This document shows positions 2,500 through 43,247 of a stretch of 64,000 bases of DNA, piece after piece. The DNA is from Strigamia acuminata (Eukaryota; Arthropoda; Chilopoda; Geophilomorpha; Linotaeniidae): assembly GCA_949358305.1 (NCBI GenBank), contig OX442315.1:434001-498000 (forward strand). Direction: 5' to 3'. Both the position numbers and the translations under genes were made by a program. The notes beneath the pieces were generated by a model that did not search any database, was not told the DNA's origin, and saw nothing but the letters and a program-made list of their open reading frames with translations. The number at the start of each line of letters is the position of its first letter. Position 1 is the first letter of the stretch.

Positions 2500-2531
2500 T
2501 TCCACATCCGCTCGCGATAACTTCGAAAACG

Positions 2532-12700: not shown

Positions 12701-15700
12701 TATCCGGCTTACAGAAACTTTTTAGTAAAGCTGACTTAAAATCTAAAATGGTTAGTAGCGGTTGTACAAATTTTTCATCCTTCACGGATGATTTGATTAA
12801 ATCGAGGACAGCAGCTGTATCCTGTTGCGCAGTTAATGCAGCTGTGTTTACAGAATTAACCTCGACCCGGCAGTTGACTTTGTACAGCCTGTCGCTAGTC
12901 CGAACTGCCGAAATCAATGGTTCCTCGATTTTATCTTTGAAAATACTCATCTTCCCATCTTTAACAATTGTGCACAACCCAGCCTCATCGGTGCGCCCGA
13001 GCGAAATAAGGTTTTTCCGAAAATTCGGTGCGAAGAATACATTCGTCAAAGTTATTTTCCTCGTTCTTTGTCCATAGAGCGAAGTGAGGACGATGTTGCC
13101 CACACCTTCAATCTTCGATTTTCCTTCTCCTTGTAGAACGCTGAAGTTAGACAACGGTTTGAAGTTTGAAAACCAATTCCGGTTGAAGGAAAAGTGGTCG
13201 GTCGCTCCCGTGTCCACGTACCACTGTGAATCGTAGTTTCCGTGCGACACAAGAGATAAGGGCACTGTGGGCTTCTCTTCCGACACCGCAGAATACAAAG
13301 TGTAGGGCTCATCTGTATAGGGGTCCAGTTGTGTGAGATTTGCTCTCTGTGGACCCCCTCTGCCTCGTCCTTTGCCACGGGTGCCTCCACGATTCAATTG
13401 GGCTGGCGAGCCAGCGCTGGCGGGGAAAGTCCCTTGCTGTTTCGGCGGCGATGGGCACTCCCTGGCGAAGTGTCCCGACCCACCGCAAGTAAAACATGTT
13501 CCACGCGAAGTTCCGGGGGAATTTGGGGTTTTTCCACGAGGTTTCCATTTCCCTTTAGTATAGAAAGCGGTAGTATTGTCTGCCAATACAGGTGGGACGC
13601 CAAATTCATTGGTCTGTTCATAAAGGCGATTGTACTCGCCAAGTAAACGTTCTTTAACGTTTTTCGCTGTGAATTCCGTATCCGACCAGTGATACGCGGT
13701 CTGTTTCACAGCCTCGTATTGTGGGGGCAGAAGATCTAAATATTGGAATGCCTGGAATTCATCGGTGACCTCAATTTTAACGTCCTTCAGTTCGACGATT
13801 TTGCGGTCGACCCGCCCGGTGAAAACTAGCATTTCCTCATTATCTCGAAGTTTCATGTTGAGGAATTCACGTCGCAACCGAGCACGACGTGCCCTCGTCG
13901 TCGGTTGATAAGCGTCCTTTAGGGCTTCCCAAACTTTCGCAGCGGTGGGGCAGGCAACAGCTATCACTTGCTGCGGCTCAGCGCAACTCATGCAGATAGT
14001 GGACATTGCCTTGTCCTCTCGAGCGTTAAACTCTCGCTTCTCTTTTGCAGTGGCTGTTGCAGCCAGTGGTGGCTCAGAGCCACTAACATGTCCCCAAACG
14101 CCGTTGTATTTGAGCAATAACTGGACCTGCACGGACCAGGTGGCATAGTTCGTGCCATCGAGCTTTTTAATATCCTTGTAATCGTCGTGCTTTGAAGCCA
14201 TCACGACGACACCAGGAAAATGCACAATAATAATTGGTTATGCACAGAAAGAACACAATTTCGGAATTTATTCCGCACACACACTTCACAGGAGCACTTA
14301 ATCACACAATGCACAATTGTCTCTAGTCCCAAAAACCAAAAAGGAAGGCGAAAATACAGTTTCAACCCGGGGAATCTCAATAAGTGAGATTGGAAAACCT
14401 TGACTGGCAATCCACCAACTCTTCCGTCCGACCTCCTGGGGTCGCGGGATGGTTGGGGGCCCTGGATAAGCCCAGCCAAGAATACAGTGCTACGTGCCCG
14501 ACTGGACGTAGGGTAGCACCGAATCTAACAAGGGACCAACAACAAAAACTTAAAACTATACAGAGTTTCACGAAAGTATGCAAATAAATCAAAACAGTCT
14601 AGATGTGAAGTTGGCCAATTACGGGATCCTTGCGCCGTAATCGGTTCCCACGGTGTGTTCAACGTCGGCTTCACGTGTCGAATTAACTCACACGCACGCC
14701 GGGGTGCTAATGTGAGGAGAAACCCTCTCAACTGGTGCACCCTGCGTGCAAAACCAGGGTTTCCTCTTGAAATCGTCGTTGCGCACGTCCGCGCCTTCGT
14801 AATTCCACGTCGGGTGTAAATCACGGCTCTTCGTGCTAAATATGGCTGTGTACGTGGACTTACACGTAAACACAGCTCCAAAACGAATATTCACCGTCGA
14901 TGGCGATGAAAAACGATCAAAATGGTCGCCACAGAACAAATCTTCGTCCTCGACGATCCTACGACAAATATCGGTCGTTTTGCGTCGAAACTCCGTCGTG
15001 TCGACGTGAATGGGCGTCGTCTCGCTGGCAATACTGATTGCCTCGGCAAAATAACGTCGTGTTGGCGTGTATCGGTTCAGATGCACGTCTGGGCTGCGAT
15101 TCGCTTCACGGCCGAATCCAAAATGGCCGCCGCAGGAGAATTTCACAACGACGTCGGAAAAAGTGCTTATTTCGCACAGAAAAATTTCGAAATAAAGCTG
15201 CTTACACACTAAAATGTCCGTAGTAATGTCCGCACACGTTGCCGATCGTTTCCAATCGATTTGGCGAAGAAAATCCGTCTGCGTCGGTCGGTTCGCGTTT
15301 GCGGCGAAGTCGGGCGACGTCTTGGCTTCGTCTCGCGTCCAAAAAGGTCGGAAATCCTTTACAAACTGGTCAGGCCGTCGAGAACCATCCTCTGCTACCA
15401 TATAAAGCGATTTCCTGGCCAAAACATCGGTTAGAAAGGAGTTGACGAGTGTCTAAACAGGTGCGCGACACCGACATGCGTGCGCCATGTTTAATATCAC
15501 ATAAAAGTGTACACGCTTCGAGGCTAACAACTGCACTCGGAAAAATAGGATAAATCATTGTTGGATTTCAATGATTTGTCCTTTACATTATAAAATAAAA
15601 GCAATGACATTCATAATCGATAACTAAGCAATAATAACAATACAGGACTCGCTCTTTTGAGCAGACGATGTTATCAGCGCATGCTGCTAAATGGAAACGT

Positions 15701-16890
15701 TCAACCGCGGTACAGAACCAGCATTAATAAAAATCGAGATCGATTGAACGCGACATCGAGACATTAAATAGCAGCACATTCATTACACATATCCGGAAAG
15801 TGTGTAATGTAAATATTCACAAACTATACAATATGGCGACAAACAACCAAACACACAATATTTCCACCACAACTCAATAGTAACGACCGTGGAACAAGCC
15901 AGGGCACTTTTATGCGAAATGGACTCGTACCAACAAAACGTGATCCAGAACGTCATCTCGAACCTTCAGCGAATTTCGATCGAATATACGCAAAACAAGA
16001 ATCGGAATCACCCGAATTGGAACACGAGGATCGTGGTTGCCATTACCGATTTAATGTCGATTTTGCTGGCGGCCGCCACCTTCCGAAACGCGCGTGTCGC
16101 AGTGGCTGCCTGGATCGTGGTGGCCCACGAAGGTTTCCAAGTCCCGCCAGCCCTCGTAGACAGTTGGGCACGCCTAGTGCCCTCGGCGGCCGTGATTCGA
16201 GCCCAAATGGTAGCCCAGGACCCGGATCCAGAGGCCTCCTACCAGAACGTGCGAGCGGCCATTCAACACCCGCTCCCGCCACCTTCGACGGCAGAGGAGA
16301 CTCCGGCTCCCAGGGATCCGTCGCCTCCTCCTCCGCCTCCACCAACGGAGAAAAGACCTTCTGAGCCACTGGCCGAACCAGTCTCGCTCAAGAAGAAGGA
16401 AGTAAAAAGAAAAATGCTCCGCCCGAAGTCGAGCATAAAGGTTTCGAAGACGATCGAACCTCAGATCGCCGCCAGACTCAGAATGTATTTCCCGGGTTTG
16501 TCCTTGACAAAGGACACGGAGGCGAAACTACTCCAATCCCCAGACCGCGGTTATTCTCTTTATGTCTGGATGAAAAACGCTATCGAAGCCGGTGCCGGAG
16601 GCGAACGCTTCATCCAACATCAACGACTCCTCCGAGCCCATCGTGCGCCAACCAGCATCGCCGAGGCACAAAGAATTCACCACACCAATCAAGGTATGTC
16701 GGCCTTCTTGCCGCCGATTTGGGCTCACGAACGAACGGGGAATCCGCTGGAAGCGCCAGGTCACTTACGTTTCTACTTGAACGAGAGCGAAGACCCCTCG
16801 GACTACTCTTCAAAATTGACCACATCTCCCAACCTGGACGAACCAAGTTCGGAAGATAAGCCAAGTTACGCCGATAACTTGAAGAAATAA
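6764..16890 (+). CDS. Third ORF of the gypsy-type element, spliced, interrupted by the copia insertion
   Basis: Exon 1 is 6764-6913 (ATG; 50 codons, acidic). The donor GTAAGT at 6914 and acceptor TTTAG at 7183 bound a 270-bp phase-0 intron. Exon 2 runs 7184-8859, is broken by the copia element, and continues at 15885-16890 in the same frame once the insertion and one target-site copy are discounted; total about 943 residues. Visible composition: a Trp/Arg-rich N-terminal region, a very charged Arg/Glu/Asp stretch (about 7980-8300), a Ser/Thr/Pro-rich linker, a hydrophobic stretch (about 16030-16130) and a Pro run near 16,320. I see no signal peptide, zinc finger or enzyme motif, and no similarity to a known family that I recognise. 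Its position after pol is where envelope-like genes occur, but it does not look like an envelope protein. Function unknown. Confidence 0.65.
8860..9336 (-). repeat. Copia 3' LTR
   Basis: This 477-bp copy matches 15403-15879. Its ends as read on the element strand are TATTG at the start and CTTTA at the finish, unlike the usual TG...CA. It is bordered on the outer side by target duplication GTAAC (8855-8859). Confidence 0.95.
9337..9350 (-). promoter_or_regulatory. Copia polypurine tract
   Basis: On the minus strand this reads CAAAGGGGGATA directly before the 3' LTR, the expected site for plus-strand DNA priming. It overlaps the end of the gag-pol ORF, which stops at 9354. Confidence 0.85.
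9354..14201 (-). CDS. Copia gag-pol polyprotein
   Basis: An intact single ORF of about 1,615 residues. The start chosen is the ATG at 14201 (MASKHDDYKDIKKLDG), because gag homology begins there; an in-frame ATG at 14225 adds eight residues. Domains in order: a gag region with LDGTNYATW; a CCHC knuckle (CFTCGGSGHFAREC) near residue 235; aspartic protease WYVDTGATDHF near 330; an integrase zinc-binding segment (WHSRMGHHNAKG to CDACARAK) near 590-630 followed by the DDE core (VHMDVWG, TDNGGEF, EMNSVAERANRT); reverse transcriptase with YVDDIVLF near 1,300; and RNase H (ADSMPAIQYAKN, ANKHIDVKLHFLRD) near the C-terminus. Integrase preceding reverse transcriptase identifies Ty1/copia. No stops or frameshifts are seen, so the copy could be autonomous. 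Confidence 0.95.
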   Translation of the reverse strand: MASKHDDYKDIKKLDGTNYATWSVQVQLLLKYNGVWGHVSGSEPPLAATATAKEKREFNAREDKAMSTICMSCAEPQQVIAVACPTAAKVWEALKDAYQPTTRARRARLRREFLNMKLRDNEEMLVFTGRVDRKIVELKDVKIEVTDEFQAFQYLDLLPPQYEAVKQTAYHWSDTEFTAKNVKERLLGEYNRLYEQTNEFGVPPVLADNTTAFYTKGKWKPRGKTPNSPGTSRGTCFTCGGSGHFARECPSPPKQQGTFPASAGSPAQLNRGGTRGKGRGRGGPQRANLTQLDPYTDEPYTLYSAVSEEKPTVPLSLVSHGNYDSQWYVDTGATDHFSFNRNWFSNFKPLSNFSVLQGEGKSKIEGVGNIVLTSLYGQRTRKITLTNVFFAPNFRKNLISLGRTDEAGLCTIVKDGKMSIFKDKIEEPLISAVRTSDRLYKVNCRVEVNSVNTAALTAQQDTAAVLDLIKSSVKDEKFVQPLLTILDFKSALLKSFCKPDMGKSASNLSTQVSEPTKANAPAAINLQKTVNEVQTPPAIVPEANATAKVNKSGDTGIKMRKKEISQSMDTWHSRMGHHNAKGIIKLTESEDVFGINLSNKELSTCDACARAKSTRASFPPIITISTKGVLDLVHMDVWGASQATSLGGANFYFILVDDYSRYMWIITMKTKGEVLGHFKRWLTEVERTTSRKVKCIKTDNGGEFISRNWDDYASKIGLKCIRTNTYSPEMNSVAERANRTIVGGVRALMLENDFPYPLWAELATTIVYLKNRFPHEGLGGKVPYTVFFGKKLSLRHIRCIGSKTFVHIPSQVRKGKLEGRAWAGALIGYAISTRGYRVWDPVRNQVFASKHVRIFEDSYWYEIGKRLQQPIKQPQGGQFKHFGDSSSDTEGDDDDSVAPIPEIVEEVQEALPPPIPPPVEPPVPKEKPPLPTTPKPVFRPELRPLVKQAIQQPAIETVEGDLVGDAGAGDNPVEEIGGAKGDNGDGENYFNVYPDDDEEVDLPPTIQARRGSGKKGKKVKDPLSLPLDMTKWRRVQSVRKAGATAGKIDVVYFSPNEDKLRSRTDVARWCDAEGYHYDPDLFDFKTLEGEEPELPFAGFCAVEPDTYEEAMRHTNKRDWEKAMKEETDIFDDRTVYKEIDKPEGELLLGSKWIYKMKRDQSGAVARYRARLVAQGFKQRPGIDFTEVFSPVVNFVLVIVFFCTLVILKGWRDVHLDIKAAYLYGDLDKVQFMEIPKGYRTAENQHKCWMLLKSLYGLHQSGRMWYQALHDRLLQLGFVPLLGLNCVYALDNDAILIFYVDDIVLFSKDDYVEECVVRWIRESFDTVDLGPVTLLLGIAFDRSGGQIRIHQRAYIEKLCKLYGVDSCLRIRVPGTPGTIIQGVTEKERVDSTFPYRNLVGSLLFLASRTRPDILFSVIVLSQYNEKHSTRHISMLLQILRYLANTSDYMINLSNCRNDNLTVYTDASFALDADKRRSFGGHIVYLGGVPIMWNCHKQSMTALSIMESEFLAVVDGVKEIIWLERLYDADIMFSINRNTPCVYADSMPAIQYAKNRIENRANKHIDVKLHFLRDWFERGTFAIKHIPGALNVADVMTKWLPKPRLNTLCEHLFVRRK
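14202..15382 (-). other. Copia 5' leader, about 1.2 kb
   Basis: This long stretch between the primer binding site and gag-pol is higher in G+C than the flanking host DNA. A minus-strand frame at 14688-15422 stays open for 244 codons, beginning near the primer binding site; its product has no recognisable motif. The rest holds no gene I can support. Packaging or translation-control structure is expected for such a leader but is not proven here. Confidence 0.6.
15383..15400 (-). promoter_or_regulatory. Copia primer binding site (initiator-Met tRNA)
   Basis: On the minus strand this reads TGGTAGCAGAGGATGGTT, complementary over 18 bases to the 3' end of the animal initiator methionine tRNA including CCA. 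It lies two bases from the 5' LTR, as expected for minus-strand DNA priming. Confidence 0.9.
15403..15879 (-). repeat. Copia 5' LTR
   Basis: 477 bp, matching 8860-9336 by eye throughout. The outer flank carries GTAAC at 15880-15884, the second copy of the target duplication. Confidence 0.95.
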
Positions 16891-20036: not shown

Positions 20037-20695
20037 TCAATCACGACTTTTTAAAAGAAGAAAACCATCGACAAAATGGATCACACCCAATACAACATAC
20101 ATTGCCTGCAAAACAAATCAATTTAGTTTAATTTAATTTAATTTAATTTAAAAAAAACTCACGGCCGATGCTGCCATACCGGCTTTGAGGTCCCCACCTC
20201 GCAACCACAATCTGCCAAACACTTTAACGTCAATTTGTGCAATATTCTCACGGATTAAAACACTGACGACGATGGCGCCAACGAGCAGATTCAAAAGACA
20301 TTGAAAAATACTAAAAAGTATCTCCTGCAATGATAAATAAATTTAAAAATTAAAAACTAAAAATTGAAAAATTGTTTTTTTACAGTTGTGGAATGTTTGC
20401 CGGGAGTGCTGTCGTCGCAGAAATACGAAATGAACAAGTGGAGAAGAACCAAACAACTCGTGGGTGCGAGCACGTTGCAAAAAGTGCACATTTGCGCGGA
20501 ATTGGTGAAAAACAAGCCCAATGGGTGCACGTATCTGTGGTAGAGTGAAACACAAATCAGGCTGGTCATCTAAATGCATTGAAAAAATGAATGAATTGAT
20601 CATCACTAATAATTGTGAATAATCTGACTTACAAATTCGATTATTTTGACAATTCCGTTGCGAGTTTGCACCCAATCCAGCTTGAGTCGAAGCAT
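20037..20695 (-). CDS. MARVEL-type four-helix membrane protein (cluster gene A)
   Basis: Exons on the minus strand: 20633-20695, 20384-20569, 20163-20324 and 20037-20105, all joined in phase 0, giving about 159 residues. The N-terminus (MLRLKLDWVQTRNGIVKIIEF) leads into helix 1. Helix 2 is around CLVLLHLFISYFC, helix 3 around FSIFQCLLNLLVGAIVV and helix 4 around MYVVLGVIHFVDGFLLL. The pattern of four helices with short ends and the LDW...GIVKI entry fits the MARVEL fold (MAL, CMTM and plasmolipin relatives; vesicle traffic and membrane organisation). I recognise the family, not the ortholog. It shares exon plan with genes C, D and J. A minisatellite separates it from divergent gene B. Confidence 0.8.
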
Positions 20696-20854
20696 TTTAA
20701 TTGTGCCGTAACGTTTCACCGAAACAGCTAGGAAGGTCAAAGATGGAAAATATTTATTTCCTTTACCTTTCTTTTCCAAGAAATACATCAATAACTGACC
20801 GATTGGTTGGTTATATCTAAAATTATCATTATCGCAGCAAAAAATGCAGTTGTC

Positions 20855-21450
20855 CATCTAAAAACAATCATTTTTGTACAAAAAATGCAGTTTTTTATCT
20901 AAAAACAATCATTTATCATCTAAAAACAATCATTTTTGTACAAAAAATGCAGTTGTCCATCTAAAAACAATCATTTTTGTACAAAAAATGCAGTTTATCA
21001 TCCATATAACAATCATTTTTGTACAAAAAATGCAGTTGTCCATCTAAAAACAATCATTTTTGTACAAAAAATGCAGTTTTTTATCTAAAAATAATCATTT
21101 TTGTACAAAAAATGCAGTTTTTTATCTAAAAACAATCATTTTTGTACAAAAAATGCAGTTTTTTATCTAAAAACAATCATTTTTGTACAAAAAATGCAGT
21201 TTTTCATCTAAAAACAATCATTTTTGTACAAAAAATGCAGTTTTTTATCTAAAAACAATCATTTTTGTACAAAAAATGCAGTTTTTCATCTAAAAACAAT
21301 CATTTTTGTACAAAAAATGCAGTTTTTCATCTAAAAACAATCATTTTTGTACAAAAAATGCAGTTGTCCATCTAAAAACAATCATTTTTGTACAAAAAAA
21401 TGCAATTTTTCATCTAAAAACAATCATTTTTGGACAAAAAATGCTTTTTT
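20855..21450. repeat. Minisatellite, about 41-bp unit, between genes A and B
   Basis: About 14 tandem copies of a unit containing ATCATTTTTGTACAAAAAAT and a TGCAGTT motif, with variants in the T-run. It fills the divergent intergenic space of genes A and B, so their promoters must be inside or at its edges. Confidence 0.9.
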
Positions 21451-21514
21451 TCGTATTCAATTATTAACTTTGCACTTTTCTGTCATACAGAAACGAAATG
21501 AGAAGCACGTTTTG

Positions 21515-21547
21515 CACGAACGTCAACCAGCTTTATTAAGCCAACAA
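21515..21547 (+). promoter_or_regulatory. Conserved upstream block shared by cluster genes B, F and H
   Basis: The sequence CACGAACGTCAAC, three bases, then CTTTATTAAGCCAACAAT occurs here and at 25697-25730 and 28343-28376, 48-76 bp before the ATG of genes B, F and H respectively. Either a shared promoter element or 5' UTR motif retained after duplication. Confidence 0.6.
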
Positions 21548-21622
21548 TAAGCTAATCGCTGCAGCGGTAACAGCGCCATCACAGCATTTCCGAACAAAAA
21601 TAGAACAACTTAATTCTCACAG

Positions 21623-22193
21623 ATGGGTGAAAACGTGAAACTCAGCTTCGATTGGATCAAAAAACCAATTGGAATTATATTCCTCATAGCTTGGGTACTT
21701 AAATTAAACAACACGTGCATTTATTGTCATTAATTGCGTTCGTTCTCGTTCCAGATATTCAGCATCGTCGTCTTGGCGCTATTTTACAGCCGTGGCTCCC
21801 AGTACTACAATTTCTTGAATGTCACAGTGGCCAGCACTTTCTTTATCCTCCTTTTTTTAGTTATTGCTTTTTTCTTAGGAGAAACAAAATCCGACAAGTT
21901 TTCAATCACGGTAATGAATGAATCAATGAATCAATATATTTAAATTAAATTAAATTAATTTCAGGCGATGATTTTTTTACTACTTCACGGTATTTTGAAC
22001 GTGTGTGCCGGAGCCTTATTGCTGACTCATCATGCTTACGGCTTAACCATCGCCACGGGAGTGAGTTCACTTTATTTGTATGAAAAGAAAATTAAAGTTA
22101 TTATTATTATTTTTTTTTTTGCAGGTATTTTGCATTCTGATCTTCATCCTGCTTTTCGTCAACGCCTTTTTCATTTTCCAGAAACGTCAATAA
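21623..22193 (+). CDS. MARVEL-type four-helix membrane protein (cluster gene B)
   Basis: Exons 21623-21694, 21755-21910, 21965-22060 and 22125-22193, all phase 0, give 130 residues. Helix 1 spans the exon 1/2 junction (GIIFLIAW to IFSIVVLALFY), helix 2 is STFFILLFLVIAFFL, helix 3 is MIFLLLHGILNVCAGALLL, and helix 4 is VFCILIFILLFVNAFFIF, followed by a short basic tail. The loop between helices 3 and 4 is only about ten residues (THHAYGLTIATG), far shorter than in its close paralogs F and H. It converges with gene C, with 65 bp between stops. Probably a vesicle or plasma membrane protein by family; specific role unknown. Confidence 0.82.
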
Positions 22194-22258
22194 GTTTTTG
22201 CATCATGTAAACACGTTTTCGCATTCGATTTATTGTATTTAAACGATTTATAAAGATA

Positions 22259-23167
22259 TTAATTGACACTGCCGCGGCATTTAATCAGGAGAAATCCGTC
22301 AAACAGATGAATCACAGCCAAAACGACGTACAAAGCCTGGAAAATTAATTTCAGGCAAATTCAAATTTCTCAAACCGACAGTCACTTACTCCGACCGCTT
22401 TAAGTCGGACTTCGAGCTGCGTGTATTGCTTGACAAAATAATTATCGACTGCGGCGTTGATTATGATGCAGCCGGCGATTAGATTCAAGAGCGCTTGGAA
22501 AACATTAAAAAACACTTCCTAGAATTATAGATTTATAGAATCAACTAAAGATAATTTATCGTGATAATACCGTGACGAAATGCTGGCCCGGTTTGCTTTC
22601 GTCGCTCATGTACGAAATGAAAAAGTAGAGGAGAATGAAACTACTCGTGGGCACAATTATTCGGCAGAATTCCCACGCGAACACGGACACTCCCACGTAC
22701 ATATTTGTTGTAAATCTGTGATAGAGCGTCATTGCAATCACGCCGGTGATCTTCGCGAGAAAGAAATAAAGAAATATTATTATAAAACACGAAAATCGTA
22801 AAATTAACACAAAAATCGTAAAATTAACACGAAAATCGTAAAATCAAACACGAAAATCGTAAAATTAACACGAAAATCGTAAAATTAAACACGAAAATCG
22901 TAAAATTAAACACGAAAATCGTAAAATTAAACACGAAAATCGTAAAATTAAACACGAAAATCGTAAAATTAAACACGAAAATCGTAAAATTAAACACGAA
23001 AATCGTAAAATTAAACACGAAAATCGTAAAATTAAACACGAAAATCGTAAAATTAAACACGAAAATCGTAAAATTAAACACGAAAATTGTAAAATTAAAC
23101 TTACAAATGCTAATATTTTGCTTCTTCCGCTGCCAGTTGTTGCCCAGTCCAGCTTAATAGACGCCAT
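22259..23167 (-). CDS. MARVEL-type four-helix membrane protein (cluster gene C)
   Basis: Minus-strand exons: 23105-23167, 22571-22750, 22390-22518 and 22259-22336, all phase 0, about 149 residues. Start MASIKLDWATTGSGRSKILAF; helix 2 near SSFILLYFFISYM; helix 3 EVFFNVFQALLNLIAGCIII; helix 4 ALYVVLAVIHLFDGFLLIK. It aligns exon by exon with A and D, notably the PGQH motif before the second intron and the final YVVLxVIHxxDGFLL helix. Intron 1 contains a private 21-bp minisatellite. Tandem with gene D (173 bp between the D stop and C start). Confidence 0.82.
22797..23097. repeat. 21-bp minisatellite in gene C intron 1
   Basis: About 13 copies of a unit containing ACACGAAAATCGTAAAATT. Because 21 is a multiple of three it stays open in several frames, giving misleading low-complexity reading frames on the minus strand. 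Confidence 0.95.
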
Positions 23168-23340
23168 TTTACCATTTGTGATAATTCGGACAAACACTCG
23201 TAGGAAATGCCCATATCTTTAGTCAGAGAATTTCCTTCCGCTTCAAATGTCAAATTAAAAGGTTAACTAATTTTATTTCAACAACAACCGAAGAAAAAAA
23301 ATAATATTACACAATTTTTCGAAATAAAATAAAACGAAAC

Positions 23341-24202
23341 CTATTTCGATGCATTTTCGTGTCCAAAATCAAAAATGACGTGTTTGCTCCGATGATATTT
23401 CAATAGGATCAAACTATCACCGAGATGAACGAGTGCCAATAAAACATACGCCGCCTGTACCGTACCATTAACACTAACTTATCACTCTTAATTTATAATC
23501 CAAGCTCACTCACCCCTGTTGCTGTAGTACCAACTTGGATCTCCAAATCGCCCAACCACTCGTTATTCCTCGATTTACCAACCACAGTGACTCCTACAAT
23601 TAAATTCAAGCAAGTCTGCAGAAAATTAAAAAATATTTCTTGCAAACAAAATTAAAAATACGAAACGAATGAATTGCGCGTACAAAACTACGAAATGAAT
23701 GAATTGCGCGTACAAAACTACGAAATGAATTAATTGCGCGTACAAAACTACGAAATGAATGAATTGCGCGTTTAAAACTACGAAATGAATGAATTGCGCG
23801 TACAAAACTACGAAATGAATGAATTGCGCGTACAAAACTACGAAATGAATTAATTGCGCGTACAAAACTAGAAATGCTCTCGTTTACCGTACTGAAATTG
23901 CGTCCTGGCTCGTTCTCACCACTCGTGTACGAAGCGAACAAGTAGAGGAGACCGAAACAACTCGTCGGTGCGATTATACTGCACAAGTGCCACGAATAGT
24001 TGGAATAAGCGGCTATAAACAACGCGAGCGAATTTGCATATCGGTGGAAAAGCGCCAACGCAACCACGCTGGTCACCTGCCGCAATTTAAAATATCTTTG
24101 TCAAACAACATTGAACGTAAGATGGACACTTACAAATGCTAGTATTTTGGTCATTCCACTGGCAGTCGACATCCAATCCAACTTGGGCTTAATTCGAGCC
24201 AT
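23341..24202 (-). CDS. MARVEL-type four-helix membrane protein (cluster gene D), altered exon-3 acceptor
   Basis: Minus-strand exons: 24134-24202, 23888-24076, 23514-23615 (if the downstream acceptor is used) and 23341-23454; about 157 residues. Start MARIKPKLDWMSTASGMTKILAF; helix 2 region PTSCFGLLYLFASY; helix 3 LNLIVGVTVVG; helix 4 AAYVLLALVHLGDSLILLK. Paralogs A and C have AG|GAG or AG|GAA at exon 3; here the aligned position reads CAAGAA, which would shift the frame. An in-frame CTGCAG acceptor 24 bases further in, after a T-rich tract, restores the frame but removes eight residues of helix 3. Either a shortened functional protein or an early pseudogene. Confidence 0.65.
23660..23875. 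repeat. 30-bp minisatellite in gene D intron 2
   Basis: Seven copies of a 30-bp unit containing GAATTGCGCGTACAAAACTA. It lies directly upstream of the altered exon-3 acceptor of gene D. Confidence 0.95.
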
Positions 24203-24650
24203 TTTGCTGGCAAATGCTAATCTTGAATTCATTTCTATTTCCTTTCGCTAAAAAAATTATCCGAACCGAACGGAGGAAATGTTAAACTGATAAAAACTTC
24301 GAATAACAAAATGCGGAAAAAAGTTTCCCATGTTTCCTGTGCGAAAAGCGAATTTTTGAAGTGCAAATTGTGCAAATTGTGTAATTTGTAATTTGTAATA
24401 CCAAAAATGCCAAAAAAAACTGTAATTTTTATTTGTTCTTATTAATAAACAAAAATATGCATCTGTAAGTGTAAAAATGATAAAATAAAGCAAAAAAGTG
24501 ATATTTTAGCTGCTAAAATGAAACTATTGAGCATGAAATTCCGTTGTGGACATGGAAATTGTACGATTGTTACTAATAACTGAACGCAGCACGCAGTACA
24601 CGTCATTCTTGCGAAAGATCAGAATAAAGATCATTCATTCGAGAGGAAAA

Positions 24651-25584
24651 ATGGCGGATTTTGGCAAAATCAAATTCGAATGGGTGAAACAACCCCATGG
24701 CATTATCCGAATACTCGGTTTTGTAAGGGAATCGCAACAGCTAATTCTCATGCACATTTTCCCTTCCCTTCCTTCTTTCTTTCTTCCCTTTCCCGCAGTT
24801 GTTGAGCATCGTTATCTTAGCACTCGTTTACGCTTACGATATCTGCGTGGACGGGGCCATGGCCCAGACCTACGTGAGCAATATTGGCGCGGGAAACCTT
24901 TTTGCCATTTTTTACTTCGTCTTTAGCTATATATTCGGAGACGAGGAGGTGGCCAAACGCAAAATAACGGTATTTATTTTTCCCATTACATAATTTGACT
25001 CGTTAGTACTCCATTTGCAATTTTTTTTTCTTTTCTAGGAAATTGGTCTCGACGGTGTGCTCGCTATTTTAAATTTAGTCGCCGGCGCCTTAGTGTTGCA
25101 CGGTTACGGCTCAGCTCCCACGATGTTGCAGACCACCAGTGACCATAATGGAACGTTGGCTGTCGGAGTAAGCCGAATAATCAGCCGAATAATCCCGGCT
25201 AATCTAAGTTTTCACTTAATTGTGAAAACAAGTGCAGAAATTACAATTTTAGACCCAAAATGGATTAATTTATGCAAAAACTAAACTTTTACAGCGAAAA
25301 ATAGATTTATTTATGCCAAAATGAAACTTTTACAGCGAAAAATCGATTTCTTGATGCAAAAAAGAAGCTTTAACGGCGAAAAATAATGTATTTATGCAAA
25401 AATGAAACTTTAACGGCGAAAAATGGATTTATTTATGCACAAATTAAATTTATAGCAAAAAATGCATTGTTAGTGAGGCCCATCAACTCAAAAATAAAAA
25501 TGTGCAATTTTTCAGATAATTTTTATCGTCGTAACCGTCGCCATGATCGCCGATGTTGTTCTTTTCGTGTTGAAAAAAGGATAA
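24651..25584 (+). CDS. MARVEL-type four-helix membrane protein (cluster gene E)
   Basis: Exons 24651-24722, 24799-24969, 25039-25167 and 25516-25584, all phase 0, 146 residues. Start MADFGKIKFEWVKQPHGIIR; helix 1 LLSIVILALVYAY; helix 2 NLFAIFYFVFSYIFG; helix 3 DGVLAILNLVAGALVL; helix 4 IIFIVVTVAMIADVVLFVL with a KKG tail. The loop between helices 3 and 4 (about 25 residues, HGYGSAPTMLQTTSDHNGT) is intermediate in length. It is divergent from gene D (448 bp between starts) and tandem with gene F. A decayed partial copy lies at 27973-28078. Confidence 0.82.
25225..25470. repeat. Minisatellite, about 42-bp unit, in gene E intron 3
   Basis: Four to five degenerate copies containing AACTTTTACAGCGAAAAAT and ATTTATTTATGC. 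Confidence 0.8.
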
Positions 25585-25777
25585 ACGTGGAAACAACCGA
25601 AAAATGTACTCGACTTTAATATTAATGAATAAAATAAAGAGAGTTTTGTCACTCCACTTGTTATTCTTGCACAACAAAAGAATGCCATTATTTCTGCACG
25701 AACGTCAACGCCCTTTATTAAGCCAACAATGCTCACCAGTAGGAGCAGCGACGACATTATAAATCCAGTTTGTTCTG

Positions 25778-27292
25778 ATGGGAGACGTGAATATCAACGC
25801 CGATTGGGTCAAAAAGCCAATTGGAATTCTATTCCTCATAGCTTGGGTATCTGAAGAACATTTAATGTCATTATAGTCAAACTAATTGCGTTCGTTCCGT
25901 TCCAGATATTCAGCATCGTCGGACTTGCATTGTTTTACAGCCATGGCCACGTATACCTTGATTTCTTGAACGTCACAGTGGCCAGCACTTTCTTTGTCCT
26001 CTTTTTTTTACTTCTGGGTTTTGTCTTCGGAGACATAAAGTCCGAACAGTTCACAATCTGCGTAATTAATTAATTAATTTGATTTAATTTAATTTTGGTT
26101 TTATATGTTGGATTATATTGTGCCAGCCTCTGACAGTGCCAGCCTACTATTTGCCAGCCTTTTATTTTTCAGCCTTTTTTAATATTCAAAAATAAAATAA
26201 AATAAAGTAATTAATAAAGTGATTATTTAGGGTCGGGGCTTTGCCAGCGTCGAAATTCGCCAGCTTCTCGTGTTTTAGCGTTAGTTTATTATTATTTTTA
26301 TTATTATTTTCAATAATACTTTGCCAGCTTCTGATGTTGCCAGCGTTTATTGTTGCCAGCGTCAACAGGTTTTAGTGTATATTAAATTAAATAATTATAA
26401 AAATAAAAAGTAATAAAAAAAATATTAAATTTTATCTATCTGGGGCGGTGGTACACGAATCAACTTCAAGGCACACCTCCCTTCATTGTGGTGAGACGAT
26501 ACGCCGCCTCCTTTAGAAACTGTATAATCAAGGAACTCGTCAATCGCAATGGCTTCTGGAAATCGGTCCTTCACTGAAGCCCACTCCGCTTTGACGATGG
26601 CAAAACCCTTCGGAATCAGATCGACCTTCAATAACGACAACGCCATCACCATGTGGATTATCATCCATATGTTAATGCGACGTTCGTGGCGTTTCCAAAA
26701 GAGGCTAGAAAATAAAGGGCCGGCAAACATAAGACTGGCAAATTAAAGGGCCGGCAAATATAAGGCTGGCAAACTAAAGGGTTGGTAAGTGTAAGGCTGG
26801 CAAACAAATAGGCAGGCAACTTCTGAATATCTTATTTATTTAATTAATATTAAAAAAGGCCAAACACAAAGAGGCTGAATTAGAAGTTAGGAAATACAAA
26901 CATCGAAAAGGCTAGAAGCTATAAGGCTGGCAACGCTGTGCACCGATTTAATTTAATCTAATTTAATTTAATGATTTTCTTAATACTTCACGGTCTTCTG
27001 AATGTCATTGCTGGAGTCACGTTGTTGGCATATCACGGCCCAGGTGATCTTCACTCACATTATCACGGCCCACGTCGTCACTCTGATGATAATTCTGATT
27101 ATGGTAATTACGATGACAATGGCCATGAGTCCGGGCGCACCGACGGCAGAGTCTTTGCCGCAGGAGTGAGTTGTATTGAATTAACAAGTAAGTTAAGCCT
27201 TTAGCCGATTTTGTGTGTTTCTCTAGGCATTTTGCATTCTTATCTTCATCCTGCTTATCGTCAACGCCTTTTTGATCTTCAAGAAACGTTAA
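25778..27292 (+). pseudogene. MARVEL-type gene F, exon-3 splice acceptor lost
   Basis: Exons 1 (25778-25846) and 2 (25906-26061) are intact and closely match gene H. Exon 3 (from about 26971 to 27165) and exon 4 (27227-27292) are also open and phase 0. Intron 2 carries an insertion of about 840 bp, and the bases that should hold the exon-3 acceptor have been lost: no AG lies between the in-frame TAA upstream and the ATGATT that begins the helix-3 segment. Normal splicing into exon 3 therefore seems impossible; exon 2 to exon 4 skipping stays in frame but removes helix 3. The helix 3-4 loop is a long His/Asp/Asn/Arg-rich tract (LHSHYHGPRRHSDDNSDYG and onward). Either a young pseudogene or one with an unusual transcript. 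Confidence 0.7.
26125..26950. mobile_element. Foldback-like insertion with GCCAGC / GCTGGC arrays in gene F intron 2
   Basis: The left part has many copies of TGCCAGC on the + strand (26135-26370); the right part has the complement as GGCTGGCAA or GGCCGGCAA (26715-26935). A core of about 300 bp lies between, with a 101-codon minus frame (26425-26730) that I do not recognise. The short sequence GATTTAATTTAAT flanks both sides, possibly a target duplication. Superfamily unknown. Confidence 0.55.
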
Positions 27293-27439
27293 CAAGTGTT
27301 AACGTTAACGTTGCATCGTGTAAACGAGTTTTGCTGTTGATTTGTTGTATTTAACCGATCATGAAAGCATTAATTGACTTTAAAAACGACACAAAATGTC
27401 GAATGACACGTTTGAACTGCAATCATTACAAATTTACTT

Positions 27440-27535
27440 TCTAATGAATGAATCTTGTTCGGAATCCAATCATTTTAAAATAAATAAATAAATATATAAA
27501 TAAATAAATAAATAAATAAATAAATGACAGCTAAT
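27440..27535. repeat. AAAT microsatellite
   Basis: Interrupted (AAAT)n run between gene F and remnant G. The surrounding 27293-27950 has no supported gene; a (GTTC)n run occurs near 27707-27727. Confidence 0.8.
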
Positions 27536-27972
27536 TCTAGTGCTAACAAGAAACGATTCAAGTGTTTGTAGCACTGAATGTGTGACAACTCACATTCCTT
27601 AGATATTACCTGACCAAATTGCACCCCAAAAGTGAAAACGCAATTTCTGGAATGATGTCTGGCTGCCCCTTGGCTCCTCCGCACTGCACAAGTGCAAATT
27701 GCGTGTTCGTTCGTTCGTTCGTTCGTTTCTCTTTCAACACTTTTCCCTCGCAAATCAAACTAAACTCTTTTTGAAAAACGGCAAAATTAGCGTTCTCGGC
27801 ATAAACAAGAATTTAATTTATCCAAAATTTTGAAACTAAGATATCTGTGTATGTGCAAAAGCGATGTTTTTACAATTTGTTCTAACAAACAATTTGCATG
27901 TCCACAACGCTACACGTACACGGCATTATTGCATGCCGAAGAAACAACATTCCAAAGAAAAATTACAAAACC

Positions 27973-28078
27973 TAAGCGAGTCAAAGTCGCCTGGTTGAAA
28001 CAACCGCACGACACTGCAATTTTCAATGAATTGCCGCCAACTTTTATCGACAACCATCACGGAACTTTGGCGATCGGA
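27973..28078 (+). pseudogene. Remnant of a gene E-like copy (remnant G)
   Basis: The segment encodes a fragment resembling E exon 1 (VAWLKQPHD versus FEWVKQPHG) followed at once by a fragment of E exon 3 (NHHGTLAIG versus DHNGTLAVG) and a matching GTAAGCC donor region. Exon 2 and helix 3 are deleted. The downstream sequence also parallels the region after gene E, so G is the decayed first half of a duplicated E-F unit. Confidence 0.75.
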
Positions 28079-28440
28079 GTAAGCCAAATAATCTCGCCCG
28101 TCCCGCCCCCGCCTCCAAGTTCTACGAGGCCAGAAATTGTGAAATTGTCAACAATTGCTTACTTCTAGACAAGAAAAGACTAAAAATCTAGAAATGACGA
28201 CATTTATTCGCGCAGAAATGACACTTTTACACTTGTAGACCCAAAAAACGAATTAAAATGCATTTTTAATGAATAAAATCAAGAGAATTTTGTCACTCCA
28301 CTCGTTATTCTTGCATCACGGGAAGAAAAAACAAAAGAATGCCACGAACGTCAACGCCCTTTATTAAGCCAACAATGCTCACCAGTAGGAACAGCGACGA
28401 CATTATAAATCCAATTCGTTATTAACTGACTAACTGTCTG

Positions 28441-29128
28441 ATGGGATCCGTGGATATCAACGCCGATTGGATCAAAAAGCCGATTGGAATTATATTCCTC
28501 ATAGCTTGGGTATATGAAGAACATTTAATGATATAGTCAAACTAATTGCGTTCGTTAATTCCGTTCCAGATATTCAGCATCGTCGGGCTTGCAATGTTTT
28601 ACAGCCATGGCTCCGAATACCACAATTTCTTGCACGTCACAGTGGCCAGCACTTTCTTTGTCCTCTTTTTCTTACTTCTAGGGTTTATCTTCGAAGACAT
28701 AAAATCCGAAAAGTTTACAATCACCGTAATTAATTAATTTGATCTAACTTAATGTAATTTAATTTAATTTAATTGTTTTCAGAAAATTATTTTCTTAATA
28801 CTCCACGGTCTTCTGAATGCCATTGCTGGAGCCATGATGTTGGCTTATGACAGCGGACGTGGTCGTCGTCAGCACGAAGACACCCCAGATGATCGCCGTG
28901 CAGGTCGTCGTCAGACAGATGATCATAATTCTGATAGTAATTATGGTTATTACGGGCGCACCGACGGCAGAGTCATCACCGCAGGAGTGAATTGAATTGA
29001 ATTGAAAGCAAAAGCAGCAATTCAGTTAAGCCTTTAGCCTATTTTGTGTGTTTCTTCTCTAGGTATTTTGCATTCTGATCTTCATCCTGCTCATCGTCAA
29101 CGCCGTTTTGATTTTCAAGAAACGTTAA
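28441..29128 (+). CDS. MARVEL-type four-helix membrane protein (cluster gene H)
   Basis: Exons 28441-28509, 28570-28725, 28783-28986 and 29063-29128, all phase 0, 164 residues. Start MGSVDINADWIKKPIGI; helix 1 IIFLIAW to IFSIVGLAMFY; helix 2 STFFVLFFLLLGFIF; helix 3 IIFLILHGLLNAIAGAMML; helix 4 VFCILIFILLIVNAVLIF with a KKR tail. The helix 3-4 loop is about 45 residues, dominated by Arg, Asp, Gln, His and Asn (RGRRQHEDTPDDRRAGRRQ and onward). It is near-identical to F in exons 1, 2 and 4 but quite different within the loop. Splice sites are all standard, so H is the intact partner of broken F. Confidence 0.83.
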
Positions 29129-29395
29129 CAAGTGTTGTAACCTGTAAACGAGTTTTGCTGTTGATTTGTTGTATTTTAAACGATTATAAAAGCATTAGTT
29201 GAGTTTAAAAAGTTTAAAAACGACACAAAATGACGAATGGCACGTTTTTGACGTTTCTACTTAAAGAAATCGTTTCAAATTTACTTTCTAATGAATGAAT
29301 CTTGTTTGCAATCCAACGGAATCTCTAGATCAACAATTAGGCCTCGCACTAAAACCTCTAAACAAATGCACCTTGTTCAAAATCCATTCATTTTC

Positions 29396-29398
29396 AAA

Positions 29399-29437
<39 letters not shown>

Positions 29438-29441
29438 ATAG
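29396..29441. repeat. AAAT microsatellite upstream of remnant I
   Basis: About 11 AAAT units. It lies where exon 1 and most of exon 2 of remnant I would be expected. Confidence 0.9.
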
Positions 29442-29498
29442 AATTAAGTGAAAAGAAATTTGTCGTATTGTCGAATTGTTGACCAATAATAGGCATAA

Positions 29499-30386
29499 TA
29501 AGAGTCGGAGCCCGGGCGGATCCCCATGACGGTAAATTAATGTACCACATTTTGTGCGATTTTCTCCTTCTTCACCCATTTTTCCATTGCAGGAGCTCAT
29601 ATTTGACATTGTTCAGAGCAGTTTGAGCATAACCTCTGGTAGTCTTGCAATGATAAATCATAAGTATTCCAATCAAGTTTTAGTTTATGGCGTAAGTTTC
29701 ATTTGCAATTGATAGAGACAAATCACTAGAGATGGGATTTTTGCGGACTTAAAACAGTGAAATTGCGGGTGGAAAGCGGCATTAAAAAACGACATTTTGC
29801 GGACTTATTGCGGACTTATTCCGGGAAGTTTTTGACCAAAATTTCAAGGTTTTATACGAAATTTGAAGTTTTTGACCAAAATTTCAAGGTTTTATACGAA
29901 ATTTGAAGTTTTCAAACGAAATTTGAAGTTTTCAAACGAAATTTGAAGTTTTTAAACGAAATTATTACGTGATATATCACGCAATACGCACGTTCACTCG
30001 ATTTTCGTAAGAAACCTCCCAAAATTGGCAAATTGCGGATTATCCGCAAAATTTGCGGTATAACGATCGGATTGCGGCAATTGCGGACTTAAAAGTACCT
30101 CCAATTACAAAAATTATGCTTTAAAAATGCTCCATTTGCATTATCCACAACTAAGAAAACATTTTGGAGGACTTTTATTTTCCGCAAACAAACAAACAGT
30201 CTGTGACTTGATCTCGAAATGTTCGCTCTAAATACACATTTATACACCTAAAAACACATTTTCTTTTTTTAGAGTGTATTCTTGTGCTACAATTAATAAT
30301 TTCTGTTAAAACAGATTTTCACACTTATCGTTGCAGTGCTTCTACTTGTTGACGCAGCCTTTACTCTCAAAACTTTATTGAATTAA
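29499..30386 (+). pseudogene. 5'-truncated MARVEL-type gene (remnant I)
   Basis: The end of an exon 2 survives (29499-29531, in-frame ESEPGRIPMT just before a GT donor, comparable to ENEPGRNFST in gene D) but is preceded by an in-frame TAA. Exon 3 (29593-29691, ELIFDIVQSSLSITSGSLAM) and exon 4 (30315-30386, IFTLIVAVLLLVDAAFTL) are open with good splice sites and phase 0. Exon 1 and most of exon 2 are missing. Intron 3 carries inverted GCGGACTT-rich sequence (29729-30105), likely a miniature element. Most likely a 5'-truncated duplicate. Confidence 0.7.
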
Positions 30387-30601
30387 TATTAAAGCGATCC
30401 ATGATGTAGCTATTATTTATGAATAAAAAACAAACATCCAACTCACATTTATACGTAACACTGCAAAAAAAGTGAGATTTCCTGTATGGAAATCTGTATG
30501 AAGAACTGTTTTCCACATCGACTTTCCATAATATTTCCATACTGTTTAATGTAATATTTCTATTAGATTTCCACACTCTTTCCATACTGTTTAAATGTAA
30601 T

Positions 30602-30874
30602 ACCGTATTTTATCGTTTAAGAGCCGCGGCTCTTATTCAAAACTGCCATTTTTGTCAGCAATTACAATTTCGGTTTTTTGTTTGTTACATTTGTTTAATG
30701 TAACAAACGAAGTCTGAACGTCATGAACGAAGCGTACGTTCATCGTTCGTGAGGTTAAATACAGAAACAATACCGTACTTTTGCAAAAATACGGTATTCT
30801 TGGTGTCTCAGCCGCGGCTACTATTCGAAAGCGGCTACTATTCGAGGGCGACTCTTAATCGGTAAAATACGGTA
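30602..30874. repeat. Miniature inverted-repeat element with ACCGTATTTT ends
   Basis: ACCGTATTTTATCG near 30602 faces CGGTAAAATACGGT near 30860; a palindromic AGAGCCGCGGCTCT lies inside the left arm. The flanking 30450-30600 and 30880-30950 hold repeated TTTCCATACTGTTTAA / TTCCACAC units, suggesting insertion into another repeat. Confidence 0.55.
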
Positions 30875-31103
30875 TTTCTATTACATTTCCACACCATTTC
30901 CACACTGTATTGTGTTAAATTTCCATCATCGTTCCACACTCGAAATATGAAATTTATAAGCAATTTTTTTTACTTTCTTTTTCACTTTTTATTTAGTTTT
31001 TGTTACTTTTAAAAAAAGAATTTACAAATGTATAATTTCTTAAAATTGTGTGTATTATAATACACACAATTCTTTCTCTCTCGTTTCTTTTAATTCAATC
31101 ATT

Positions 31104-31772
31104 TCATTTCCAGACAACGAGATTCTTCTGAGCAAATCTGCGGATTGCAGCTGGTGACGGCACTCTGTCTTTGTAAGGCAACGACACGTCCACTAAGTAC
31201 ACAATTGATGCCATGATGGCTATCACCTGCAATAATACAATACATCAACATTAGATACAAACTTATGACTCCCTACTTTACTCTTTATTTACCCCATATG
31301 CGATTCCCGCCGCTTCAAACTTGGGCGCTGTTGTAAAAATACTGTAATAATAAATGCTGCAACATCCAGAAAGCAAGTAGAGTAAAACAGCCAACAAATC
31401 AAACATTACTTCCTACAACAACAACAACAACAAGAAAGCAAATAAACAACTAACTTGTACGTCAAACAACGAATTACTCAACTGCCAACGGTGGTTTGAG
31501 ATGATCCTCCACCAACTTAGTGATCAACAAAACGCTCGTGATGAGAATATACGCGGAAGGAGTAAAAAAGGACAAAAGGAACCAATCGGGACGCCCTCCC
31601 ATCAGCACAACTCCTCGAGTCACTCCCAAACATATCAAACCTAGAACCTACAACGATCGTTTACAATTTAAAGCGAAATCTACGAGCAACTACTCACGAT
31701 TTCGGCCACTTTGAGCCACTCGCGCGGCTCCCGCAGCAACACGCCGATCCAGACTCGCGCCGTCGCCGCCAT
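31104..31772 (-). CDS. MARVEL-type four-helix membrane protein (cluster gene J)
   Basis: Minus-strand exons 31698-31772, 31483-31647, 31293-31412 and 31104-31226, all phase 0, 160 residues. Start MAATARVWIGVLLREPREWLK; helix 1 VLGLICLGVTRGVVL; helix 2 SAYILITSVLLITKL; helix 3 EVMFDLLAVLLYLLSGCCSIYYY; helix 4 VIAIMASIVYLVDVSL with a basic tail. The exon 3 donor and acceptor positions match the other cluster genes. It is the most divergent intact member and closest in appearance to standard CMTM/MAL-type proteins. The exon 2 donor (GTTGAG) is weak but fits the conserved phase. Confidence 0.8.
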
Positions 31773-32229
31773 TGGAGAATAAACGTCAAAATTGTGTTTG
31801 TGTCTGTCAAACGGATTAAATGTTTATCACGTTGGCTCAATCATGGTGCGAGTGTTTGTGAGCGTGTGTGAGTGTGAGATAAACACAACGGACTGTTTGT
31901 TTTCGAGTTATTTTTAGGGTGGAACGAACGAACGAGGCCGAGGCTAGGGCTAGGATGAATCACTTTTGAAATATTTCTTGGGTAAACTTCCCGTCCCGTC
32001 TCGCTCGCTGCAGGAAATCAAACATCCTTTGCGTTTGTGCACCAAAACCTTTGATCTTTTGCTCTTTTGCTCTTTTCTTTCGACGAAATCCAGAGAAATC
32101 TTGACGGATTGAAAAATATTACAAGAAAATTTCGGCAATTCTGTAAATCCTTGTAAATGCAAGTGAGTTCAAGTTTCACTTTAAACATCTATTGAAAATC
32201 TGAGATTCATTCTGAAAACGAGGAAAATG

Positions 32230-35244: not shown

Positions 35245-40589
<5,345 letters not shown>

Positions 40590-41968: not shown

Positions 41969-43247
41969 ATGGGAGACGTAAGTTGAATTAAAATAATATA
42001 AAAAAAACACACAAATAATGCTAAAAATTTGAAATTTGTCAGCTGGAGCCGTACATGGACGAAACGTTTTTACGAAATGGCTTCAACCAAATGGGCGAAA
42101 ACTTCCGCAATGTGAAAATAATGAAAAATAAGTATACTGGGTAAGTTATTGACACATTAACGCAATTTATTCGATCGATTAAATTTTTGTTTTCTTCGCA
42201 GGGCATTCATGGGATATTGCTTTTTGGAATTCGAAAACGAAGAAACGGCGCTCCGCGTTCTACACAAACTAAACGGACGAGTTTTGCCAAACAGTTCTCC
42301 TGTAAATTTCACCAATTCTATTTTTTTTTTATATTTAATTTTAATTCTTTTACAGCCCAAACGCTTCAAGCTGAACCACGCGAATTACGGCAAGGATCAC
42401 GCGTATAACCGCGAATTTTCCTTGTTTGTCGGAGATCTTAGCCTCGATGTGGATGATTTGGCGCTGTATAAAGCCTTTGGTTCTCGATATCCGTCCGTAC
42501 GTGCAGCAAAAGGTATGAAAAATGGTTCTAAACACGTAAAAAATTATTATTTACTATTTATTTTCTATTTTCTAGTTGTTCTGGACGCGTCGGGGAGAAG
42601 CAAGGGTTTTGGCTTCATTCGGTTCGCGGACGAATACGAGCAGCAGCAAGCCTTAATCCAGATGCAAGGTTACACAGGTCTCGGCAGCAAACCGTTACGC
42701 GTCAGCCCAGCGACTCAGAAACGCCCGACCACGGCGACAACTACCGCAACTACACCGCCGACCGACTACACCCGCTACTACCAGCAGTACGAGCAGTACC
42801 AGAATTACTATTCCGCCTGGCAGGATTATTCGCAGCAATATTATAATTACGCCTATAATTATAACTATTACAATTACGATTACCAACAGCAGCAGCAACA
42901 ACAACAAACCCAAGTAAAATTACAAAAATTGAATACCGTACTGCCTTGAACAATGGCCCGGGCGTTTATTCAAAACCAGGCGATTATTCAAGCCAGGCCT
43001 CTATCTATTCCGATTGGTTTCTTATTAAATTTTGTTTTCGCAGGTCGGTTACGACGCGAGTGGCGGCGCAGGTGCAGCAGTTGTCTACGACACGAGCGAC
43101 ATCACGGTGGAGGAGCACGACACGGTGCTGGACACGAACCGGGAGAACTACGAGTTCATGGCGCGCAGCGAGGACTTATATTCAGCTATGGAAGAGTCGC
43201 GTTGGATTCCACACGAATATCTGAAACCTTGCGTCGACACGAAATAA
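41969..43247 (+). CDS. TRNAU1AP: tRNA selenocysteine 1-associated protein (SECp43)
   Basis: Exons 41969-41977, 42043-42140, 42202-42301, 42356-42512, 42576-42913 and 43044-43247, 301 residues. RRM1 covers MGDLEPYMDETFLRNGF to GYCFLEF (RNP1); RRM2 covers SLFVGDL (RNP2) to SKGFGFIRF (RNP1). Next is LGSKPLRVSPA, then a Tyr/Gln/Asn-rich tract with a polyGln end, and the conserved acidic C-terminus (NRENYEFMARSEDLYSAM...SRWIP). SECp43 binds tRNA-Sec and is implicated in its modification and selenoprotein synthesis. The nominal start at 41969 gives MGD directly; related proteins have a few residues (SLW) before it, which are present here without an upstream in-frame ATG. The 3' end is 61 bp from the USP14 stop (convergent). 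Confidence 0.93.

Follow-up and report, generated by a model that had tools for sequence, protein, structure and literature searches.

What kind of gene cluster occupies positions 20,037-31,772 of a 64,000-nucleotide stretch of the genome of the centipede Strigamia acuminata, and how did it arise? The stretch (C3:434001-498000; referred to as the window) lies on contig OX442315.1, abbreviated C3, which is taken as chromosome 2 of qcStrAcum1.1 on the basis of the genome note (PMC10556566). It contains ten MARVEL-type loci on both strands, in the order A-, B+, C-, D-, E+, F+, G+, H+, I+ and J-. In our judgement the cluster probably belongs to a family of MAL/CMTM-type MARVEL proteins, small tetraspans encoded at multiple loci, that is both growing and decaying and whose products would have a membrane or vesicle role.

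Gene models were read from the open reading frames of the region. Eight window models, as well as six models from elsewhere in the genome, consist of four exons separated by three phase-0 introns. The window models are:

20037..20695, minus strand: gene A, exons 20633-20695, 20384-20569, 20163-20324 and 20037-20105; 159 aa; exon 3 donor gtgagt
21623..22193, plus strand: gene B, exons 21623-21694, 21755-21910, 21965-22060 and 22125-22193; 130 aa
22259..23167, minus strand: gene C, exons 23105-23167, 22571-22750, 22390-22518 and 22259-22336; 149 aa; 21-bp minisatellite within intron 1
23341..24202, minus strand: gene D, exons 24134-24202, 23888-24076, 23514-23639 and 23341-23454; 30-bp minisatellite within intron 2
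24651..25584, plus strand: gene E, exons 24651-24722, 24799-24969, 25039-25167 and 25516-25584; 146 aa
25778..27292, plus strand: gene F, exons 25778-25846, 25906-26061, 26971-27165 and 27227-27292
28441..29128, plus strand: gene H, exons 28441-28509, 28570-28725, 28783-28986 and 29063-29128; 164 aa; helices 3 and 4 joined by a long polar loop
31104..31772, minus strand: gene J, exons 31698-31772, 31483-31647, 31293-31412 and 31104-31226; 160 aa; separate lineage

Over the 14 models 40 of 42 introns are of the GT-AG type, and the two exceptions lie at the acceptor before exon 3 in D and in F; the second donor of J (GTTGAG) is weak. Complete four-exon models are A, B, C, E, H and J, and G and I are remnants. 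An earlier note on this DNA had described the gene order, the alternating strands, a spacing of 65-930 bp and four exons with three phase-0 introns. The exon coordinates, which give an intergenic spacing of 65 to 927 bp, agree with this description, and the intron count and phase hold for A-F, H and J. Of the eight genes listed in the note, D and F have lost the ancestral exon 3 acceptor. Minisatellites, with repeat units of roughly 20 to 41 bp, are found at window positions 20838-21452, 22785-23100, 23654-23876 and 50630-52537, the second and third of them inside introns of C and D, respectively.

The eight window models and seven further proteins were searched with the Pfam MARVEL profile (PF01284) at its curated cut-off. 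Three of the eight exceeded it, namely E (3.1e-10), H (6.3e-9) and F (3.7e-8, the value obtained when F is translated across its missing acceptor), as did one of six paralogues from the rest of the genome, an E-type gene on chromosome 1 (contig C1; 1.1e-10). All four matches span most of the domain. Pairwise identity is 69% between F and H and 56% between E and the chromosome 1 E-type gene. C and D are placed in the family because they are homologous to a paralogue at 17.0 Mb on C3 (BLASTP 4.9e-52 and 3.4e-49, respectively); identity to that gene is 49% for D, 48% for C and 43% for A. The best match of J within the family, the I-type gene on chromosome 1, reaches only 3.0e-6. The sole match in the search made with J was P0001, a JGI metagenome protein of 118 aa without the first helix, to which J is 62% identical over 116 residues.

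Hydropathy was evaluated for the 14 models with a simple threshold for hydrophobic segments. Four segments were present in 13 models, in line with the four-helix products that had been proposed, and three segments exceeded the threshold in C. In every one of the 13 models where the first hydrophobic helix was called, intron 1 lies within it; the earlier note had placed this intron after the N-terminal segment. The products are 130-168 aa long in 13 of the 14 models, and the gene at 660 kb on C3 encodes 243 aa.

The exon plan links the family to a well-described protein. Median exon lengths over the 14 models, D and F included, are 23/57/42/22.5 aa, and the exons of human MAL encode 31/56/42/24 residues with splicing always between codons (PMC8145151, section 11.1). 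Judged by lengths and phases, which for MAL were taken from the published text and not from an aligned sequence, the four-exon, phase-0 plan of MAL is found in 14 of 14 models. It recurs at C3:381 kb, 387 kb, 660 kb and 17.0 Mb and at C1:42.01 Mb, and also at C8:9.56 and 10.77 Mb, where translations were inspected by eye; in the 660 kb gene, exon 4 was chosen by a hydropathy scan. Paralogues with this plan outside the cluster are thus spread over three chromosomes. As the plan occurs in genes elsewhere in the genome and in human MAL, it is not a mark of this cluster, which is how it had been presented at first; it is a trait of the family and probably predates arthropods. If common descent accounts for the match, this gene structure of MAL would date back at least to the divergence of vertebrates and arthropods.

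The largest length variation falls in the loops between helices. Exon 3 encodes 65 residues in F, 68 in H and 32 in B; in the 660 kb gene, exon 2 reaches 137 residues as compared with the median of 57. F and H, for example, have a His/Asp/Arg-rich loop between helix 3 and helix 4, and the first loop of the 660 kb gene is greatly enlarged.

Relatives were sought by single-protein searches of the genome and by tblastn over fetched stretches, C3:498,001-655,000 being covered by single-protein searches alone. The family comprises at least 22 loci, ten of which are in the window. The others are located as follows:

C3:380.7-399.5 kb (the 381-399 kb group): four loci
C3:659-671 kb: two loci, the second interrupted
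C3:17.005 Mb: one locus
C1:42.014 Mb: two loci
C8:9.56, 10.77 and 13.71 Mb: three loci, the last a fragment only

The locus at C3:383 kb (K2) yields exons 1-2 only and that at C3:399 kb (K4) exons 1-3 only; the count does not include the weak matches at C5:9.718 Mb and C3:30.434 Mb. No second genome copy of J was found in the single-protein search with J. The 660 kb gene (C3:658,177-660,250) has a second copy at C3:663,751-670,934, which is 88-96% identical in pieces and interrupted by several kb.

A tree was calculated from 18 rows and 152 columns, with K2 omitted, the 399 kb row incomplete and two C8 rows assembled by eye; one of its rows, C8:10.77 Mb, is on a long branch and unsure in position. 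Had a single ancestral gene expanded in place, A-J would be expected to make up a single local clade and to have an exon plan peculiar to the cluster. The tight spacing of the genes and the clades B/F/H (100/100) and A/C/D (86/86) speak for such an expansion and bear out the local duplication proposed earlier; no members of the B/F/H clade were found outside the window in the single-protein genome searches. Paralogues from outside the window, however, fall among the cluster genes: A/C/D groups with the 17.0 Mb gene (99/98), and E with the genes at C1:42.0 Mb and 660 kb (99/96). When the seven rows A-F and H were constrained as one clade, with J, G and I outside the tested group, the log-likelihood dropped by 106.6 units and the constraint was rejected (approximately unbiased test, p-AU 0.00026). 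J lies far apart; the branch that separates it, together with P0001, from all other rows has a length of 2.5 changes per column. In addition, the exon plan is shared with genes elsewhere in the genome and with human MAL. An expansion in place from a single gene is thus very unlikely, and the local clade that the earlier note had named as a check is rejected for A-F and H under the model used. The window label requires four changes on the tree, a value as low as that in 43 of 500 shuffles, so that the window genes are weakly clustered. Judged from the tree topology and the rejected window clade, the cluster is an assembly of several subfamilies side by side, most of them with members elsewhere, and J is a separate lineage.

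How copies were gained and lost can be followed in the G-I-J part of the cluster, which contains the following features:

27557..28272, plus strand: remnant G and flanks, most of exon 1 fused to the end of exon 3; coding traces at 27980-28078
28266..29440, plus strand: H-carrying block, paralogous to the F-carrying block at 25622-27469; the aligned part ends at 29316 and the right end is approximate
29500..30416, plus strand: remnant I, consisting of the end of exon 2, exon 3 (29593-29691) and exon 4 (30315-30386)

G is without exons 2 and 4, the end of exon 1 and most of exon 3, and is colinear with a complete gene at C1:42,014,110-42,014,910. I lacks exon 1 and most of exon 2, and is colinear with a complete gene at C1:42,015,046-42,015,782; it had been recognised correctly as a remnant, but retains the end of exon 2 besides exons 3 and 4. 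Taken together, window positions 27557-28272, 29500-30416, 31058-31132 and 31858-31916 are colinear with C1:42,013,826-42,015,956, with 68 to 92% identity over eight pieces and with upstream and intron sequence included. In the C1 segment the E-type gene (the counterpart of G) and the I-type gene are complete, and the 3' end of J directly abuts the J 5' flank, the body of J being absent. The window has a complete J where C1 has a relic, from which we infer that the C1 segment was probably copied from the window locus rather than the other way round; either of F and H may be the older.

The H block sits between the G and I alignments and is 74 and 83% identical to the F block over two main pieces. 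A short match of window positions 29442-29472 to C1:42,014,943-42,014,973 (E 2e-6) shows that the H block occupies the place of the last exon of G and that another event, a net deletion of about 350 bp, removed exon 1 and most of exon 2 of I. According to this scheme, whole genes with their flanks multiply by DNA-level duplication, both locally and between chromosomes, keep the four-exon, phase-0 plan of MAL, and in some cases decay; in the window copy of the G-I-J segment that is common to the window and chromosome 1, the H block takes the place of the last exon of G and a small deletion has hit the start of I. The duplicated blocks, the remnants G and I and the damage in F are in accord with the gene birth and death proposed in the earlier note.

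Two further copies are affected at the acceptor of exon 3. In D the ancestral acceptor is lost and now reads gcaa. An alternative is present at 23615, 24 nt downstream, in frame and behind a pyrimidine-rich stretch; its use would cost eight residues at the start of helix 3. In F the acceptor, whose counterparts are TTTTCAG in H and TTTCAG in B, is gone, and a stop lies directly upstream of exon 3 in the required frame. No in-frame substitute was seen, the two AG sites in the first 90 nt of exon 3 being out of frame. With its acceptor missing and no such substitute, F as drawn probably cannot be spliced and is probably a pseudogene; at best it could skip exon 3. Intron 2 of F (26062-26970) measures about 900 bp and contains short tgccagc-type repeats, and its counterparts in B and H are about 55 bp long.

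The ratio of nonsynonymous to synonymous substitution rates (dN/dS), determined by simple counting, was 0.31 to 0.36 for A/C, C/D and the 17.0 Mb gene paired with A, C and D. It was 0.47 for B/H, 0.51 for B/F, 0.55 for E and the chromosome 1 E-type gene, 0.59 for I and the chromosome 1 I-type gene (exons 3-4 only), and 0.81 for F/H. Fisher tests were applied to nine pairs, C/D not among them, and rejected equality in seven, with fewer nonsynonymous than synonymous changes per site. The p values were 1e-7 to 3e-6 for A/C and for the 17.0 Mb gene with A, C and D, 0.006 for B/H, 0.008 for B/F and 0.01 for E and the chromosome 1 E-type gene. These values support a coding function of the older genes, and the F/H ratio fits a gene F that is recently dead or relaxed. 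They also bear on the view that the cluster is a graveyard, i.e., an old MARVEL locus in which nearly all copies are dead and J is the sole working gene. The damage in F, G and I, the lost ancestral acceptor of D and the two pairs indistinguishable from neutral (F/H, and I with the chromosome 1 I-type gene) are what such a locus would display; yet the frames of A, B, C, E and H are complete and their introns GT-AG, and the older pairs are under constraint, which renders this view unlikely.

Several results weigh against a constrained MARVEL family. In the profile search J (9.9e-7), A (6.6e-4) and B (9.9e-4) remained below the cut-off, and C, D and the chromosome 1 I-type gene had no Pfam MARVEL match, so that the profile check suggested in the earlier note was passed by E, F and H but not by the other window models. 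The 17.0 Mb, 381 kb, 387 kb and 660 kb genes were below the cut-off too, as was P0001. A search with an alignment of seven window proteins (A2) gave no match at E <=0.01 among 5,969 candidates from 5.8 billion proteins; this collection may hold few animals, and absence from it is therefore not evidence of novelty. With regard to constraint, dS exceeds 1 for the pairs among A, C, D and the 17.0 Mb gene, and no departure from neutrality was detected for F/H (p 0.48) and for I with the chromosome 1 I-type gene (p 0.26).

The members without a MARVEL match could indicate that this is a four-helix family unrelated to MARVEL and alike by composition only, all the more as hydrophobic proteins attract weak unrelated matches, such as those in the Pfam scan of the window models. 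Against this, the scores of E, F, H and the chromosome 1 E-type gene extend across most of the domain, pairwise homology ties the remaining members to these four, and the exon plan is that of MAL. We therefore regard a family outside MARVEL as highly improbable and retain the probable assignment to a dispersed tetraspan family of the MAL/CMTM type.

MAL is a component of specialised membranes and features in a model of apical transport (PMC8145151). Because of the roles reported for the relatives MAL and Singles bar, the most likely role of the centipede proteins would be to organise membrane domains or vesicle cargo. By analogy, they would most likely be four-helix proteolipids with both ends cytosolic, residing in specialised membranes, where they would help to sort or dock vesicle cargo, with the interhelix loops as the fast-changing part. 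A more far-reaching idea, which we put forward only as speculation with little probability, is that in geophilomorph centipedes a MAL-type tetraspan is radiating fast, its loops diversifying for a lineage-specific secretory or barrier tissue, with copies moved to another chromosome and source copies dying.

The surroundings of the cluster were inspected as well. Two long open frames, 2415-6545 (plus strand) and 9354-14237 (minus strand), resemble LTR retrotransposon polyproteins when their translations are viewed by eye, and two others on the plus strand (7184-8902 and 15808-16890) had no Pfam match at E 0.01. Beside the cluster, 35245-35616 and 38925-39263 (minus strand) encode partial KN homeobox stretches (Homeobox_KN; the first below the cut-off), which we take to be TGIF-like. 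Further Pfam matches on the plus strand are an RRM protein (42161-42949), a Ras-family fragment (50071-50370), neurensin (55155-55766) and the small chain of ribonucleotide reductase in two neighbouring open stretches (57256-58143). Scanning the window with Rfam and for tRNA genes gave no match, and a Protein Data Bank search (query A1) returned two chance-level matches, one of which was synaptogyrin-1 at E 0.23. Contig C1 opens with 6 kb of TTAGG telomere repeats, as is usual for an arthropod.

With respect to known systems, a gene at C6:12.626 Mb in the same genome scores with MARVEL and is presumably synaptogyrin-like; unlike the genes described here it stands outside the family and is absent from the matches listed for the searches with J and the family proteins. 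Among arthropods, Drosophila singles bar (sing), which is needed in myoblast fusion, is likewise a four-helix MARVEL protein, described without mention of a cluster (PMC8834112); the likeness is drawn from its description. A tardigrade genome paper tabulates a MARVEL family (PMC5531438). No paper on a MARVEL cluster in centipedes or other arthropods was among the matches listed from the open-licence PMC literature. Human MAL shares with the centipede genes four exons, codon-boundary junctions, four membrane segments and a similar length (153 aa); it differs in being a single gene at 2q11.1 within a family of seven, as summarised in PMC8145151, whereas the centipede has many clustered paralogues with variable loops. 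Similar in arrangement are human CMTM1-4 and CMTM6-8, reported as two MARVEL gene clusters (PMC7476098), in view of which the earlier statement that no equivalent had been described was too strong. In contrast to them, the centipede family includes damaged copies and occupies several sites. As MARVEL clusters are already known in human, the centipede cluster is a further, not an unprecedented, example of a growing and shrinking gene family, and a compact one, in which the duplication of membrane protein genes, their copying between chromosomes and their loss can be traced at the level of single bases.

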